Virus record (IMG/VR): IMGVR_UViG_3300000477_000004
Location: 1 to 33,394 of that record
Source: a virus
Strand: one strand, 5' to 3'
Length of the DNA stretch: 33,394 nt
Shown: positions 26,352 through 30,856 of the stretch, piece after piece
Layout of the letters: each line of letters starts with the position of its first letter
Numbering within the stretch: the stretch's first letter is position 1
Program-made: the position numbers and the translations under genes
Notes under the pieces: generated by a model
Seen by the model: the letters and a program-made list of their open reading frames with translations, nothing else
What the model was told of the DNA's origin: nothing
Database searches by the model: none

Positions 26352-26939
26352 ATGCCAGTAAAAAAAGTAAAGAAGGTGGATAAATTTTTGTCTAAGGCAG
26401 CTAAGCAAAGTCAAGCGGTTTCCAATGTGTCAATGAAGTCCTTGATTGATAATTTAGAGCTGGTTGACATTAACAAGGTTAATCTTTGGGAAGATAATCC
26501 CAGAAAGAACGACCAGAATGTTGACAATGTTGCCAGATCGATAAGTGAGCATGGTTTTCGTTCTCCGCTTGTTGTGTGGAGAAAGAATGGTGTTGTTTAC
26601 AAAGGTAATACTACCTTGAAGGCCGCATTGAAGCTCGGCTTGAATAAGGTTCCTGTATCGTATCAAGATTTCCCTTCCGAGACTGCCGCTACTGCTTACG
26701 GTATTTCGGATAATAAAACAAGTGAAGGATCAAAATGGGATGAGGAGATTTTGTCAAGATTGATGAAGGCTCCTGAGTTTACGGAAGATATTGAGCGCAC
26801 AAAGAGGTTGACAGGTCTGAAAGATAAGGAGCTTAATGTTCTTCTGGAAAAGATGGAAGCTCCTGAAGAATTTCCTACCTATAAGGAAACTTTGAAAACG
26901 CAACATATCTGCCCTAAGTGTGGCTATGAGTGGGATTGA
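26352..26939 (+). CDS. ParB/sulfiredoxin-fold protein with zinc-ribbon tail
   Basis: The 195-residue product has a ParB/Srx N-domain: 'DNPRKNDQNVDNVARSISEH' then 'GFRSPLVV' and 'KGNTTLKAALKLGLNKVPV', matching the ParB-type G-x-x-R-x-x-AA-x-x-LG element but with Thr where the Arg would be. It ends with CPKCGYEW, a half zinc-ribbon. It has no DNA-binding HTH or dimerisation domain, so it is not a segregation ParB. In phages this fold is often next to or fused with DNA methyltransferases, and other Srx/ParB folds are kinases. Here it heads the presumed modification operon. RBS AAGGAG at 26339-26344. Confidence 0.75.
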   Translation: MPVKKVKKVDKFLSKAAKQSQAVSNVSMKSLIDNLELVDINKVNLWEDNPRKNDQNVDNVARSISEHGFRSPLVVWRKNGVVYKGNTTLKAALKLGLNKVPVSYQDFPSETAATAYGISDNKTSEGSKWDEEILSRLMKAPEFTEDIERTKRLTGLKDKELNVLLEKMEAPEEFPTYKETLKTQHICPKCGYEWD

Positions 26940-27001: not shown

Positions 27002-27205
27002 ATGGAAGTTTTAAGTAGGGCTAAATGTGGATGTAAGTGGTATGCGGATGCGAAGTTGGGTATTGTCTTTTGTAAAAGGCATAATAAAAAGTGGCTTAAC
27101 TATTTGAAAGGGTTGCGTAATGAGAAAGAAACAGGATCGAAATCTTCGGGATCTTCTCAAATGCATAATAAGAACAAAAGTGCCGTTAAACGAAGGAAAG
27201 GTTGA
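27002..27205 (+). CDS. Small Cys/His protein overlapping the first PP-loop gene
   Basis: I do not recognise the family. The 67-residue basic product begins with a compact 'CGCKWYADAKLGIVFCKRHNK' region (read as CGCKW then FCKRHNK), a possible C-x-C...C-x2-H zinc site, then a Ser/Lys-rich tail. RBS AAGGTGG at 26990-26996. It overlaps the next gene by 86 bases in another frame, more than any other pair in the window. Either it is a short accessory protein or one of the two starts is misplaced. Confidence 0.5.
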   Translation: MEVLSRAKCGCKWYADAKLGIVFCKRHNKKWLNYLKGLRNEKETGSKSSGSSQMHNKNKSAVKRRKG

Positions 27206-27959
27206 CGGAGTAGCTTTGTATCTATCTGGCGGAGTTGACTCAATGACACTCGGCTTCTTATGCAATGAAATGGGTTTTAAAGTAACCGCTTATTGTTTTG
27301 AGATTGATAATAATGTTACCGCTGATAGTTCATCGGCACGGAGGGCTTGCAATATGTTCGGTTGGGGTTTAAAAATCATAAACGTCCCATCTGAAAACGT
27401 GTATGATGATTTTAAGCGATTGACAAAATTGGGTTGCAGAAAGAAAACCCATTATGAGTGTACTTGGCCTATGCTTTATCTCTTTCCAGCGACAAAGGAG
27501 AAGTATATCTTTGGTGGCTATGGTGCTGATATACTTTACGGACTTTCAAAGCAAGCCTGTATGCATTATAAGTATACTATTGAATTATTAAACGACTATA
27601 GGGCAAAGCGATTTGCGGATGACAATCCGAATGGCGTGCGTCAAAGAGAGAATCTTGCCAAACGATATAATAAGGTTTTAGTTGAGCCGTACATGGATCC
27701 TATTATGCCTGATTATTTTAAAGATAAGACTTGGGACGATTGTAACCAGCCCGTACAAAAGGCAATCGTTCTTAGAGAATTTCCAGAGTTTAAAGAGTTC
27801 GGAAGACGTCCGCATATTAATTATCAATTGCTGGCAAAAATTCCCGAACACTTTGAAACGCTATTGGCTGGTGATTTAAACTTTAACAAACGGACAAGGA
27901 TTATTGATCTATGTAGGGATCATTATGAATTGGCAAAAAATAAAGGGGATGCAAAATGA
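27120..27959 (+). CDS. Asparagine-synthetase-like PP-loop ATPase, copy 1
   Basis: The 279-residue product is an adenylating PP-loop enzyme like the synthetase domain of AsnB. It has 'ALYLSGGVDSMTLGFL' (SGGVDS at 36-41 binds ATP), 'FGGYGADILYG' (131-141, the family GEGADELFGG) and the C-terminal block 'PVQKAIVLREFPEFKEFGRRPH' (read as PVQKAIVLREF then GRRPH, with K214 and R219). There is no N-terminal glutaminase domain, so it would use ammonia or another amine, as beta-lactam synthetase relatives do. These enzymes activate a carboxylate as acyl-AMP, then form an amide. It overlaps the second copy by 4 bases (ATGA). Confidence 0.85.
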   Translation: MRKKQDRNLRDLLKCIIRTKVPLNEGKVDGVALYLSGGVDSMTLGFLCNEMGFKVTAYCFEIDNNVTADSSSARRACNMFGWGLKIINVPSENVYDDFKRLTKLGCRKKTHYECTWPMLYLFPATKEKYIFGGYGADILYGLSKQACMHYKYTIELLNDYRAKRFADDNPNGVRQRENLAKRYNKVLVEPYMDPIMPDYFKDKTWDDCNQPVQKAIVLREFPEFKEFGRRPHINYQLLAKIPEHFETLLAGDLNFNKRTRIIDLCRDHYELAKNKGDAK

Positions 27960-28810
27960 GAGAATTAGAGGCAAAGTTTTTTAATGATCTTTGCAAAGCA
28001 GTTGAGGAACTCCTTGACGGAAAAGAAGCTGAAAGGAAGTTTATGCTTAGCGGTGGTATCGATTCGATTCTTTTACTTACGGCATACGATAAAGTTTTCG
28101 GTGCTAAGGATTTGAAAACTTACACCATGATAGGTACTAATCTAAAAGAGATCGGATATTCTCGGTTGTACGGTCAGCAATATTTTAAAACAGATCATAC
28201 CGAGATTAAAGTGACCTTAGATGATTTTCTTGACAGATTGCCTTTAATTCAGAATATGGGTTTTACCACAGTTTTCCAAACTATGTTCTATATTCTTATG
28301 TGGATAAGCATAGAGAAAGCAGATTTGGTAGGGACTACGATAATTCATGGTGGAGGTGCTGATCCTTTGCAAGGGTCAAGTAATGTATTTATGTATACCG
28401 CAACCAATCAGATAGCGGAATCTCGAAACGTTTCGGTTGATGTAGCCAGAGATATTATCAAAAAGGAAAATTACCAAAAGAGAGTTTCTTTTGAGGTAAA
28501 TAGTTCTGCATGGTTAAGGTCGTATGCTTACAAAAAGGTTGACGGAACTGAAATAGCTCCCTACTATAGTAAACACGTTTCATGGTTAGCATACGAACCA
28601 TTCTCCGTAACGCAACCTAAATCAAAAGGATTTTTTAAGTCCGTTATGAAGTATGCAGGTGTAAAGGGTGTAGATAAGATTCAAAGAGTGGGGTTGCAAT
28701 TGGGTACAGGTCTTTACTATCTACTTCGGAAAGAGCTTGAACAAGCTCATGGAATGGACGCTAACAAGATAATCAAGAAACTTTCCAAAAAGGATGAAAA
28801 ATGCGAATAG
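27956..28810 (+). CDS. Asparagine-synthetase-like PP-loop ATPase, copy 2
   Basis: The 284-residue product is a second, diverged AsnB-synthetase-like protein. It has 'KFMLSGGIDSILLLTAY' (SGGIDS at 32-37), 'TTIIHGGGADPLQG' (131-140, matching the GEGADELFGG position) and a C-terminal 'YSKHVSWLAYEPF' ... 'KIQRVGLQLGTGLYYL'. The C-terminal half is weaker than in copy 1, so the two may form a heteromer or have different acceptors. No glutaminase domain. It is translationally coupled to copy 1 and to the zinc protein that follows. The substrate is unknown; see findings. Confidence 0.8.
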   Translation: MRELEAKFFNDLCKAVEELLDGKEAERKFMLSGGIDSILLLTAYDKVFGAKDLKTYTMIGTNLKEIGYSRLYGQQYFKTDHTEIKVTLDDFLDRLPLIQNMGFTTVFQTMFYILMWISIEKADLVGTTIIHGGGADPLQGSSNVFMYTATNQIAESRNVSVDVARDIIKKENYQKRVSFEVNSSAWLRSYAYKKVDGTEIAPYYSKHVSWLAYEPFSVTQPKSKGFFKSVMKYAGVKGVDKIQRVGLQLGTGLYYLLRKELEQAHGMDANKIIKKLSKKDEKCE

Positions 28811-28995
28811 TAGAGAACAAAAATGAGGATAGGCGCAATAAACTTTGTAAATGTTGCGTATGCGGTAAGATTGCAAGGTGTACGATTACCAATGACTTTT
28901 ACGATACCCAAGATCACGGTGATGGGTTAGTTTGTGAAAGTTGCCTCTTAGGATATTTATCTAAAAAGGGTAGAGAGCAAAATGGAAAAGCCTAA
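28801..28995 (+). CDS. Small zinc-ribbon-like protein in the modification operon
   Basis: The 64-residue product has 'LCKCCVCGKIARC' and 'GLVCESCLLGYL', which together make a possible four-Cys zinc site. The ATG at 28801 lies inside the end of the PP-loop gene, and its own 3' end overlaps the methyltransferase start. This tight coupling on both sides suggests a subunit of the modification machinery, perhaps for DNA or partner binding. Inferred from context. Confidence 0.6.
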   Translation: MRIVENKNEDRRNKLCKCCVCGKIARCTITNDFYDTQDHGDGLVCESCLLGYLSKKGREQNGKA

Positions 28996-30004
28996 ATACA
29001 AAGTAATGCGGATGAAGAATATACGAAGATTAAAGCCTAATGGGTATTCTTTAGTGTCAACATTCTCAGGATGTGGCGGGAGCTGTCTTGGTTTCCGTAT
29101 GAAAGGATTTAGCGTTTTATACGCTAATGAGTTTATACCAGAAGCTCAAAAGGTTTACAAGGCGAATATGCACCCAGAGACCAAATTAGATTGTCGGGAT
29201 GTTCGTAAAGTTAAAGTTGAGGATATCTTGACAAGTACTGGTTTAAAAGTTGGAGAACTTGACGTATTCGAAGGCTCACCACCTTGCGCTTCCTTCTCTA
29301 CTGCGGGAAGTAGAGAGAAAGGATGGGGAGTTGTTAAGCAATACTCCTCAGTTGAGCAGAGAGTGGATGATCTATTCTTTGAATACGCTCGGTTGTTAAA
29401 TGGTTTACAGCCGAAGATGTTTATTGCGGAGAATGTATCTGGCTTGCGAAAAGGTAAAGCTAAGGGTTTCTTTAATCAGATTGTTCGGATACTTGAAGAT
29501 TGCGGTTATATAGTACGTTCGGCAGAACTTGATGCAATGTGGCTTGGCGTACCTCAATCAAGAAAGAGGCTTATTTTTATCGGAGTGCGAAAGGATTTCG
29601 ATATGCTTCCTATGTTTCCTCAACCCTTACCTTATTACTATACTGTTAAAGATGCGCTGCCGCATATTACAGAAGTTAAGTTTGGAGGTTTACCTGACAA
29701 CTGGAAAGGTAGTTTACGACCGAGTCCTACTATAGTTCAATCGGGAGCGATAAGAAGCGAAACGGCTTACTTCTCTGGTGCTACTTATTGTAAAGAAGCC
29801 GATAACGTGGTTCGAAAGTTTAGAATAGAAGAGATTCAGAGGCTGTGTGGGTTTCCTGATGATTTTGAACTTTACGGATCTTATGAAGAGCAATGGGAAC
29901 GCTTAGGGCGTGCAGTACCGCCAGTGATGATGTCACATATAGCAAGCTCAATTAAAGAATCTTTGGACTTCATTAACTCAGAGGACAGGCCGCCATGGCT
30001 ATGA
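28982..30004 (+). CDS. C5-cytosine DNA methyltransferase with unusual motif X (candidate carboxymethyltransferase)
   Basis: The 340-residue product is a Dcm-family enzyme. Motif I is FSGCGGSCLGF (28-38), II YANE (E50), IV EGSPPCASF (catalytic C102), VI AENVSG (E150), VIII QSRKRLIFIG (192-201), IX-like RIEEIQRLCGFP and X LGRAVPP (308-314). The target-recognition section between VIII and IX is short (about 75 residues). Motif X normally reads GNAVPP or GNSVPP. Here Arg (R310, codon 29909-29911) replaces that nearly invariant Asn, which contacts the SAM site. In engineered M.MpeI a Lys or Arg at the motif X Asn permits carboxy-SAM use, as I recall. The downstream CmoA-like gene fits this. No restriction partner is visible. 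Confidence 0.9.
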   Translation: MEKPKYKVMRMKNIRRLKPNGYSLVSTFSGCGGSCLGFRMKGFSVLYANEFIPEAQKVYKANMHPETKLDCRDVRKVKVEDILTSTGLKVGELDVFEGSPPCASFSTAGSREKGWGVVKQYSSVEQRVDDLFFEYARLLNGLQPKMFIAENVSGLRKGKAKGFFNQIVRILEDCGYIVRSAELDAMWLGVPQSRKRLIFIGVRKDFDMLPMFPQPLPYYYTVKDALPHITEVKFGGLPDNWKGSLRPSPTIVQSGAIRSETAYFSGATYCKEADNVVRKFRIEEIQRLCGFPDDFELYGSYEEQWERLGRAVPPVMMSHIASSIKESLDFINSEDRPPWL

Positions 30005-30111
30005 GTACGATAATAAAAATCTTAGTTGTATCGGGTACGCTTGTGGCTCCAATCTTATTGCTAATTGGAACTATACTGAATTTGTTGGTTTTACTTTTAC
30101 TACTGTTTTAA
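29995..30111 (+). CDS. 38-residue hydrophobic membrane peptide
   Basis: The product MAMSTIIKILVVSGTLVAPI, continuing as a Leu/Ile-rich run, is almost wholly hydrophobic and should span the membrane once or as a hairpin. It overlaps the methyltransferase stop. An alternative ATG at 30001 overlaps it as ATGA. It lies between the methyltransferase and CmoA-like genes. I cannot assign a function. Confidence 0.5.
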   Translation: MAMSTIIKILVVSGTLVAPILLLIGTILNLLVLLLLLF

Positions 30112-30121
30112 GGAGGCATAT

Positions 30122-30856
30122 ATGAATATTAAACATCCAACAGTTAAAGGCTTTTCCTTTGCAAGTATTGACTATGCGAAATTTGAAGAACATATCGCGG
30201 CGAGTATACCGGGCTACAATGAGGTAGAAAACATTATTCTCGGTCTGTCGGAATACTTTATTCAAGATCATTCAAACGTTTATGATCTTGGTTGTTCTAC
30301 AGGTCGATTGGTTTCTTTACTTGGTGATAAGCATAAGGGAAAGAGCAAAGCAAACTTTATTGGTGCGGAGATTGAGCCGAATTTTTATTACGGAATAGCA
30401 AAAAAGTTTGGGTATGAGATTGAAGATATTGGATGGGAATTCTACTTTGAGAATATGACTTTCAGCCGTGCCGATATTTGTTCCGATAAGTTTGTGATTG
30501 AGAATGCCAGCTTTGTTACGTCTGTTTTTACTTTTCAGTTTTTGCCTTTGCAGAAGAGAGAAGAACTTTTTAAGAAAATTTATGATGGCCTCAACTCTGG
30601 TGGTTGTTTAATGTTGACCGAAAAAGTTTACGCTTGCAATGCAAAATTTCAGGACTTCCTGACCTTTTTATATTACGACCACAAGAAAAAGAGCTTTACA
30701 GAGCAAGAAATTTTGGCTAAAGAACGTGATTTGAGGAATATGATGTATCCAGTGACGCTTGTCAAGTTGGAGAGTTTACTTAAGGAAGCTGGGTTTGCGC
30801 ATATTGAGACCGTATGGCGCAATTTGAACTTTGTTGGAGTTATTGCCGAAAAGTAA
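30122..30856 (+). CDS. CmoA-like SAM enzyme, candidate carboxy-SAM synthase
   Basis: The 244-residue product matches E. coli CmoA (247 residues) across its length. It has IPGYNEVENIIL (CmoA PGYSNII), VYDLGCSTG (YDLGCSLG), IENASFVTSVFTFQFL (IENASMVVLNFTLQFL), KIYDGLNSGGCLMLTEK (KIYQGLNPGGALVLSEK), a 'YYDHKKKSFTEQEI' block (HHDFKRANGYSELEI) and 'NLNFVGVIA'. CmoA converts SAM and prephenate to carboxy-SAM and phenylpyruvate. By my alignment, CmoA Arg199, a carboxylate contact, corresponds to E201 with Arg at 202, so the substrate should be tested. CmoB, the usual tRNA-modifying partner, is not present. RBS AAGGAGG at 30110-30116. Confidence 0.85.
   Translation: MNIKHPTVKGFSFASIDYAKFEEHIAASIPGYNEVENIILGLSEYFIQDHSNVYDLGCSTGRLVSLLGDKHKGKSKANFIGAEIEPNFYYGIAKKFGYEIEDIGWEFYFENMTFSRADICSDKFVIENASFVTSVFTFQFLPLQKREELFKKIYDGLNSGGCLMLTEKVYACNAKFQDFLTFLYYDHKKKSFTEQEILAKERDLRNMMYPVTLVKLESLLKEAGFAHIETVWRNLNFVGVIAEK

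Follow-up and report, generated by a model that had tools for sequence, protein, structure and literature searches.

What would a tailed phage do with a homologue of the carboxy-S-adenosylmethionine (carboxy-SAM) synthase CmoA, a DNA cytosine methyltransferase and two amide ligases, all encoded in one compact run of genes? These genes lie in the IMG/VR virus record IMGVR_UViG_3300000477_000004, and the window analysed here is that entire record of 33,394 bases, which may itself be incomplete. We consider it probable that the operon as a whole is a post-replicative DNA cytosine hypermodification system, to which a second ligase, P0002, may add a further step. A sequence-only reading of this DNA had listed at 27120–30856 two AsnB-synthetase-like enzymes, a small zinc protein, a C5-cytosine methyltransferase, a membrane peptide and a full-length CmoA-like protein. 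We found these genes as listed, on the + strand and mostly overlapping:

27120–27959, + strand: P0001, predicted CmoY-type adenosine monophosphate (AMP)-forming amide ligase, 279 amino acids (41.1% identity to S-B43 CmoY over 92%)
27956–28810, + strand: P0002, predicted second AMP-forming ligase of a family separate from CmoY, 284 amino acids (Pfam Asn_synthase match, structural model and context)
28801–28995, + strand: P0003, small CxxC/CxxC protein, likely zinc-binding, 64 amino acids (from its sequence)
28982–30004, + strand: P0004, predicted CmoX-type DNA cytosine C5-carboxymethyltransferase, 340 amino acids (best PDB match 8YF3)
30001–30111, + strand: hydrophobic peptide open reading frame (ORF), 36 residues (from its sequence)
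30122–30856, + strand: P0005, predicted phage-type carboxy-SAM synthase, a CmoA homologue, 244 amino acids (NCBIfam TIGR00740 match and identity to S-B43 CmoA)

Overlaps join P0001 to P0002, P0002 to P0003 and P0003 to P0004, with the hydrophobic ORF and then P0005 downstream.

The route proposed in the sequence-only reading, from carboxy-SAM through 5-carboxymethylcytosine to an amide, is supported by biochemistry on homologous genes of Synechococcus phage S-B43 (PMC12783734; Nat Commun, December 2025), and the defining residues are present here. In that paper, CmoA is shown to produce carboxy-SAM, CmoX to form 5-carboxymethylcytosine in GC motifs and CmoY to join glycine to this base, with 5-glycylcarboxymethyl-deoxycytidine (5-glycylcarboxymethyl-dC) present in virion DNA. 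The S-B43 module (PDB 8YF3) and the window share the same three clustered enzyme types, a stand-alone AsnB-type ligase, a methyltransferase with SPPC and a motif X Arg, and a CmoA without the Arg199 of the Escherichia coli enzyme. The window differs in adding P0002 and in its gene order, ParB-Y-P0002-(CxxC)-X-(peptide)-A. The core pathway of the window is therefore already published and not new in kind; what is new, relative to the main text of PMC12783734, is the second ligase family. A term search of that main text found no second or sequential ligase. The paper also describes unnamed ligase clusters with differing active-site residues, and these may include P0002-type proteins. Our literature search, to which bioRxiv preprints were out of scope, found PMC12783734 alone on this pathway.

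The predicted carboxymethylation and first amide steps

P0004 is a DNA cytosine-C5 methyltransferase (Pfam E 8.5e-53) with the motif X Arg, R310, that the sequence-only reading had pointed out. Its best PDB match is CmoX itself (8YF3, E 1.9e-57), followed by HaeIII methylase (1.4e-27). CmoX proteins are recognized by an SPPC catalytic motif and an Arg at the position of R350, which contacts the cofactor carboxylate (PMC12783734). Both are found in P0004, in which S99 P100 P101 C102 and R310 are invariant with CmoX of S-B43 (SpCmoX) and R310 aligns with R350 in motif X. A phage CmoX is further marked by a CmoA gene nearby, and only 117 bases separate the P0004 stop codon from the P0005 start. 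Identity is 43.9% to the top-listed phage match, from Streptomyces phage TurkishDelight, and 35.2% to SpCmoX, placing P0004 closer to the ParB-linked CmoX group than to SpCmoX. Among 171 CmoX-labelled ORFs from the window and from phage and viral loci (score above 150; not de-duplicated), SPPC occurs in 170, and a simple pattern finds the motif X Arg in at least 160 (66 GRAVPP, 54 GRMVPP, 25 GRMVAP, 11 GRSVPP and 4 GRAVAP); the remainder comprise five rows without a pattern match and six single odd ones. On its sequence, P0004 is very likely a CmoX-type cytosine carboxymethyltransferase.

The motif X residue follows the CmoA neighbour: Arg with CmoA, Asn without. We observed this in CmoX-like loci of bacterial and archaeal genome contigs that were gathered without reference to CmoA (score above 200). 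Among all non-identical proteins, 36 had Arg and a CmoA gene, 3 had Arg without CmoA, none had Asn with CmoA and 8 had Asn without CmoA; 3 further proteins had no residue aligned at this site. With flanks of at least 1.5 kilobases (kb) on both sides, the corresponding counts were 31, 1, 0 and 5 (Fisher p 1.4e-5, a generous value because copies in one genome are related; two loci with no aligned residue, one with CmoA and one without, were excluded from the table). A recurrent pairing of CmoA and methyltransferase genes, on which the sequence-only reading had staked its proposal, was likewise found from both directions: a CmoX-type gene was on the examined stretch in 64 of 67 non-identical CmoA-seeded loci, and CmoA in 70 of 74 CmoX-seeded ones. 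Each seeded set holds the best 80 of more than 500 relatives, so it is skewed to the window's own kin, and related contigs are not independent.

These data bear directly on an alternative in which P0004 is a C5-cytosine methyltransferase of the ordinary kind and the CmoA homologue acts in tRNA modification. This is the classical role of CmoA, and C5 methyltransferases are common in phages (614 phage records match P0004). Arg310 at motif X, a nearest solved relative that is CmoX and the strong CmoA–CmoX pairing all argue the other way. Moreover, CmoB (PF08003), reported missing in the sequence-only reading, was not found in the record (0 of 1) by a search that was positive in 6 of 14 control genomes, and no tRNA genes were found in the window. 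We therefore regard this alternative as highly improbable.

P0005 is homologous to CmoA over residues 20–244 of its 244 (TIGR00740, E 8.8e-36) and is 40.2% identical to S-B43 CmoA over 96%, in line with the full-length protein first described. Its 123.8 bits fall below the NCBIfam cut-off of 193.3. In E. coli CmoA, as reported in PMC3663124, Arg199 holds the cofactor carboxylate by a salt bridge. P0005 has E201 in that column and an Arg, R205, four residues further on; the proven-active CmoA of S-B43 (SpCmoA) shows the same Glu/Arg pattern at E. coli positions 199 and 203, which is present in 73 of 150 rows, the window and SpCmoA among them. P0005 thus combines the full-length homology and the Glu/Arg pattern of an SpCmoA-type protein. 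Loss of Arg199 was considered as a sign against CmoA identity and dropped, because SpCmoA has the same loss.

Across 187 CmoA rows, an Arg stands at E. coli position 199, 203 or 207 in 186, and at exactly one of these in 180 (20 at 199, 83 at 203 and 77 at 207; 6 have both 203 and 207, and 1 has none), in an alignment that is not gap-free over 190–212 (Lys198 is aligned in 187 rows and Pro208 in 185). The rows are ORFs from phages, viruses, genome contigs and the window, plus an E. coli fragment; excluded were 5 short ORFs from viruses or phages and any genome ORF no longer than 190 residues. A strict charge swap between Arg199 and Arg203, suggested by rows scoring above 60, was rejected when a third class appeared with lower-scoring rows, and the claim is therefore one of three Arg positions. 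Judging from the sequences, their spacing of four residues is what consecutive turns of a single helix would give. P0005 falls in the 203 class, as does SpCmoA; we know of no assay of a 207-class CmoA.

P0001 matches Pfam Asn_synthase at 31.8 bits (gathering score 21) and falls on the SpCmoY side of a midpoint-rooted ligase tree of 51 sequences. The top VIA-align match of its structural model (predicted local distance difference test (pLDDT) score 92.2) is human asparagine synthetase (Z-score 23.3, 262 residues, root-mean-square deviation (rmsd) 3.0), and the alignment covers residues 222–529 of that enzyme (9b6c), the synthetase half only. P0001 therefore has the features of a CmoY: a stand-alone AsnB-type synthetase domain, related to SpCmoY and encoded beside CmoX and CmoA. 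We predict that it joins an α-amino acid, probably glycine, to 5-carboxymethylcytosine.

A second ligase family beside CmoY

P0002 scores higher against Asn_synthase (39.6 bits, gathering score 21), and its model (pLDDT 79.7) aligns to residues 227–526 of human asparagine synthetase 9b6c (VIA-align Z-score 23.4, 258 residues, rmsd 2.8). As the sequence-only reading had stated, neither P0001 nor P0002 has a glutaminase domain, because each model aligns with just the synthetase half of the full-length enzymes. The two window ligases share the synthetase-domain fold and PP-loop columns of asparagine synthetase B and β-lactam synthetase; they differ in having no glutaminase or other N-terminal domain and in their DNA-modification context, and identity in the structural matches is 12–19%. 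Compared as profiles, P0002 and CmoY are homologous at only 17% identity (E 5.9e-10). P0002 is accordingly a predicted asparagine-synthetase-fold ligase of a family separate from CmoY. The two ligases that the sequence-only reading listed together are therefore not equivalent, P0001 alone being of the CmoY type.

Sequence conservation suggests how the two families differ. We mapped 26 CmoY-type rows against 11 P0002-type rows, with local and global runs in agreement. The PP-loop SGG-D-S, G133, D137, P211 and K214 (CmoY numbering) are invariant in both families; in P0002 itself, S32, G33, G34, D36 and S37 of the PP-loop, together with D136 and K224, are all invariant across its family. Beyond these common ATP-binding and catalytic columns, P0002 does not share the CmoY-invariant ones: K109, E113 and K144 of CmoY are not conserved, and the columns of P117, R161 and H232 are occupied by Tyr112, Lys169 and Arg244, each invariant in the P0002 family. 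P0002 thus appears to be an active ligase; its pocket and that of CmoY are basic at the same sites yet built differently.

The family is found in viral contigs. Used as single-sequence queries, P0001 and P0002 found no relatives there, and alignment-based searches were needed; these placed the P0002 family in 19 viral records besides the window, with 15 non-identical proteins (three partial loci, L206–L208, are outside this count). P0002 had no match in 50,697 phage records, nor did another family member. A T4-like member matched only four short Listeria phage contigs, which we discounted as weak partial matches (26.4% over 45% of the query). The family was not found in genome contigs from 84,980 species genomes (303 pattern matches, 0 relatives), by a scan for short peptide patterns that can miss members.

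CmoA is present on 9 of the 19 records, and the same 9 carry CmoX and CmoY. In a tenth record, CmoY directly follows the family gene and neither CmoA nor CmoX was found, so that CmoY is present in 10 of 10 records that contain another module gene. The CmoA-bearing records hold five non-identical P0002-family members, or six with the window. How telling this is depends on how often CmoY occurs in any case. Among 64 non-identical CmoA-seeded loci without the P0002 family, 25 have a CmoY-size ligase and 3 more a longer, glutaminase-size one (more than 400 residues); with flanks of at least 3 kb on both sides, CmoY is found in 12 of 20. If the loci were independent, CmoY in six of six would have a chance of about 0.004 at the first rate or 0.05 at the second; they are not independent, and the association is suggestive only.

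On the ligase tree, the CmoY proteins that accompany the family are spread across the SpCmoY side, and the P0002-family gene therefore seems to have come and gone. The flanks of loci L137 and L133 are about 85% identical, and the gene is present between CmoX and CmoY in the first and absent in the second; L114 likewise lacks it. In L123, compared with L112, a 384-residue ORF takes its place. That ORF was considered as a second ligase and rejected by sequence inspection.

Proposed position of the second ligase in the pathway

We propose the following mechanism. P0005 would make carboxy-SAM from SAM and prephenate, and P0004 would use it to carboxymethylate cytosines of the phage DNA at C5, so that 5-carboxymethylcytosine forms. 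P0001 would then adenylate the carboxylate with adenosine triphosphate (ATP) and join an α-amino acid, most likely glycine, leaving a new free carboxylate. By homology to the proven S-B43 enzymes, these three steps are highly likely. P0002 would most likely act on the new carboxylate, adding an amine (ammonia or a second amino acid) to give a longer amide arm; the purpose of the whole would probably be to shield phage DNA from host nucleases. This role for P0002, as a later and optional extension of the 5-glycylcarboxymethylcytosine arm, is put forward tentatively, from genome context and active-site comparison. We place P0002 after CmoY because the P0002 family, wherever the module can be seen, came with CmoY, usually as the adjacent gene, whereas CmoY can do without it, and because P0002 has the chemistry of CmoY in a different pocket; the glycine added by CmoY would offer it a fresh carboxylate. 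More speculatively still, some phages might build a short amide or peptide-like chain on cytosine unit by unit, with CmoX supplying the handle, CmoY an amino acid and P0002 the next unit; the module would then be a small optional assembly line on DNA.

The same residues can be read differently. P0002 may be an alternative ligase that puts a different amine on 5-carboxymethylcytosine in parallel with P0001, producing two modified bases. It retains the ATP and catalytic columns without K109, E113 and K144 of CmoY, and has invariant residues of its own (Y112 for P117, K169 for R161 and R244 for H232), which makes another amine likely; PMC12783734 also describes clusters of ligases whose active-site residues differ. 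If it worked in parallel, some records would be expected to pair it with CmoA and CmoX in the absence of CmoY, an arrangement seen in none of the nine CmoA-bearing records, and we consider this version unlikely, if worth keeping in view.

Gene spacing raises another possibility, that P0001 and P0002 form one hetero-oligomeric ligase, or that P0002 shapes the substrate choice of P0001, with a single amide bond as the outcome. The two genes overlap or lie a few bases apart in the window and in the L112, L137, L176 and L185/L186 types. By contrast, about 3.8 kb separates the P0002-type gene from CmoY in L175, nine records have the family with no CmoY on the fragment, and the invariant PP-loop, D136 and K224 make P0002 look catalytic in its own right. 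A shared complex is, in our view, improbable.

Several points weigh against a hypermodification operon extended by P0002. The CmoA homologue lacks Arg199 and scores under its family cut-off; SpCmoA is under it too, at 113.8 bits, and the Arg199 objection is removed because SpCmoA shares the loss. P0002 is only 25–29% identical to its own relatives. The other 9 of the 19 family records (fragments of 4.2–16.8 kb) have no CmoA, CmoX or separate CmoY, although the CmoX search had no positive control of its own on them; weak CmoY-profile matches in 4 of the 9 fall on the P0002-family gene itself. Some of these CmoA-less fragments bear T4-like structural genes, and the isolates nearest one such contig are T4-like Pelagibacter phages and cyanophages. 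The family may thus also work apart from this pathway. Because CmoY is present in 12 of 20 well-flanked loci anyway, its place beside the P0002 family is weaker evidence than it looks. Finally, the case is built on sequences and structural models.

Related modules and their neighbourhoods

The operon sits in a recurring neighbourhood. A ParB-like gene lies just 5′ of the ligases and probably has an accessory role:

26352–26939, + strand: ParB-like protein, probable module accessory, 195 amino acids (PHROG 620 ParB-like, E 3.3e-33)

Its Pfam ParB_N score is 26.2 bits, just below the 26.3 cut-off. A ParB-like gene is on the examined stretch in 67 of 74 non-identical CmoX-seeded loci, and PMC12783734, which reports 5,615 candidate CmoX sequences, describes an association with ParB-like genes. 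Two small products are only candidate members of the system: P0003 carries two CxxC pairs, consistent with the zinc protein listed at first, and the 36-residue hydrophobic ORF corresponds to the membrane peptide. P0003 had no Pfam family at cut-off and no NCBIfam match; neither it nor a 67-amino-acid ORF at 27002–27205 had a relative among the ORFs of the loci examined. Taken as a whole, the record is part of a tailed-phage genome, with genes for the baseplate and a replication set of its own (family A DNA polymerase, primase/helicase, DNA helicase, ligase, Sak4-like annealing protein and RuvC-like resolvase).

A CmoA, a CmoY-like ligase and a C5 methyltransferase also occur together in Pseudomonas phage PaBG, Erwinia jumbo phages and Staphylococcus phage vB-SscS-F1. 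The three lie within a few genes of one another in PaBG and F1, whereas in the Erwinia phages examined the methyltransferase match is about 17–21 kb away. Unlike the window, these phages were not matched by P0002 in the phage collection, and the examined stretches carry no gene of its family. The CmoA of PaBG and the Erwinia phages is of the E. coli Arg199 type, unlike P0005, and the F1 methyltransferase lacks the motif X Arg of P0004.

Other loci showed departures of their own. In Staphylococcus phages PhiSepi-HH3 (L005) and vB-SscS-F1 (L006), CmoA lies beside a C5 methyltransferase with GSPC and a Gly at motif X, and the published criteria for CmoX therefore miss it; F1 carries a CmoY-like ligase as well. 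Such methyltransferases may bind carboxy-SAM differently or put it to another use. In Erwinia phage pEa_SNUABM_17 (L010, 9941–14818), DUF1611 and alanine-racemase-domain genes lie between CmoA and the CmoY-like ligase, along with a 420-residue protein with no Pfam match at E 0.01; the content of this interval hints that an unusual amino acid or a D-amino acid is provided for the ligase.

Cellular genomes and a plasmid carry related regions. A Brasilonema contig (L209) and a Scytonema plasmid (L210) each have a CmoX-type gene with the Arg and an overlapping CmoA, and no ligase match was found on the examined stretches; the first two steps may occur alone on this cyanobacterial contig and plasmid. 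One Verrucomicrobia assembly holds several diverged copies of the CmoX-type region (L224, L231, L236, L237, L238, L259 and L260), with stretches mostly 72–94% identical over up to about 12 kb pairwise and CmoA adjacent in 5 of the 7 loci. L259 and L260 have a fragmented CmoX reading frame. From their sequences, the copies look like a multicopy prophage or mobile element.

The core of the window thus adds carboxy-SAM-based DNA modification genes in yet another phage lineage, and its extra ligase points to a carboxyl handle that can take more than one round of tailoring. Comparing close relatives that have or lack a P0002-family gene offers a test of the added step. If it is true, it predicts a nucleoside heavier than 5-glycylcarboxymethyl-dC, and P0002 would represent a new enzyme family that attaches amines to DNA.

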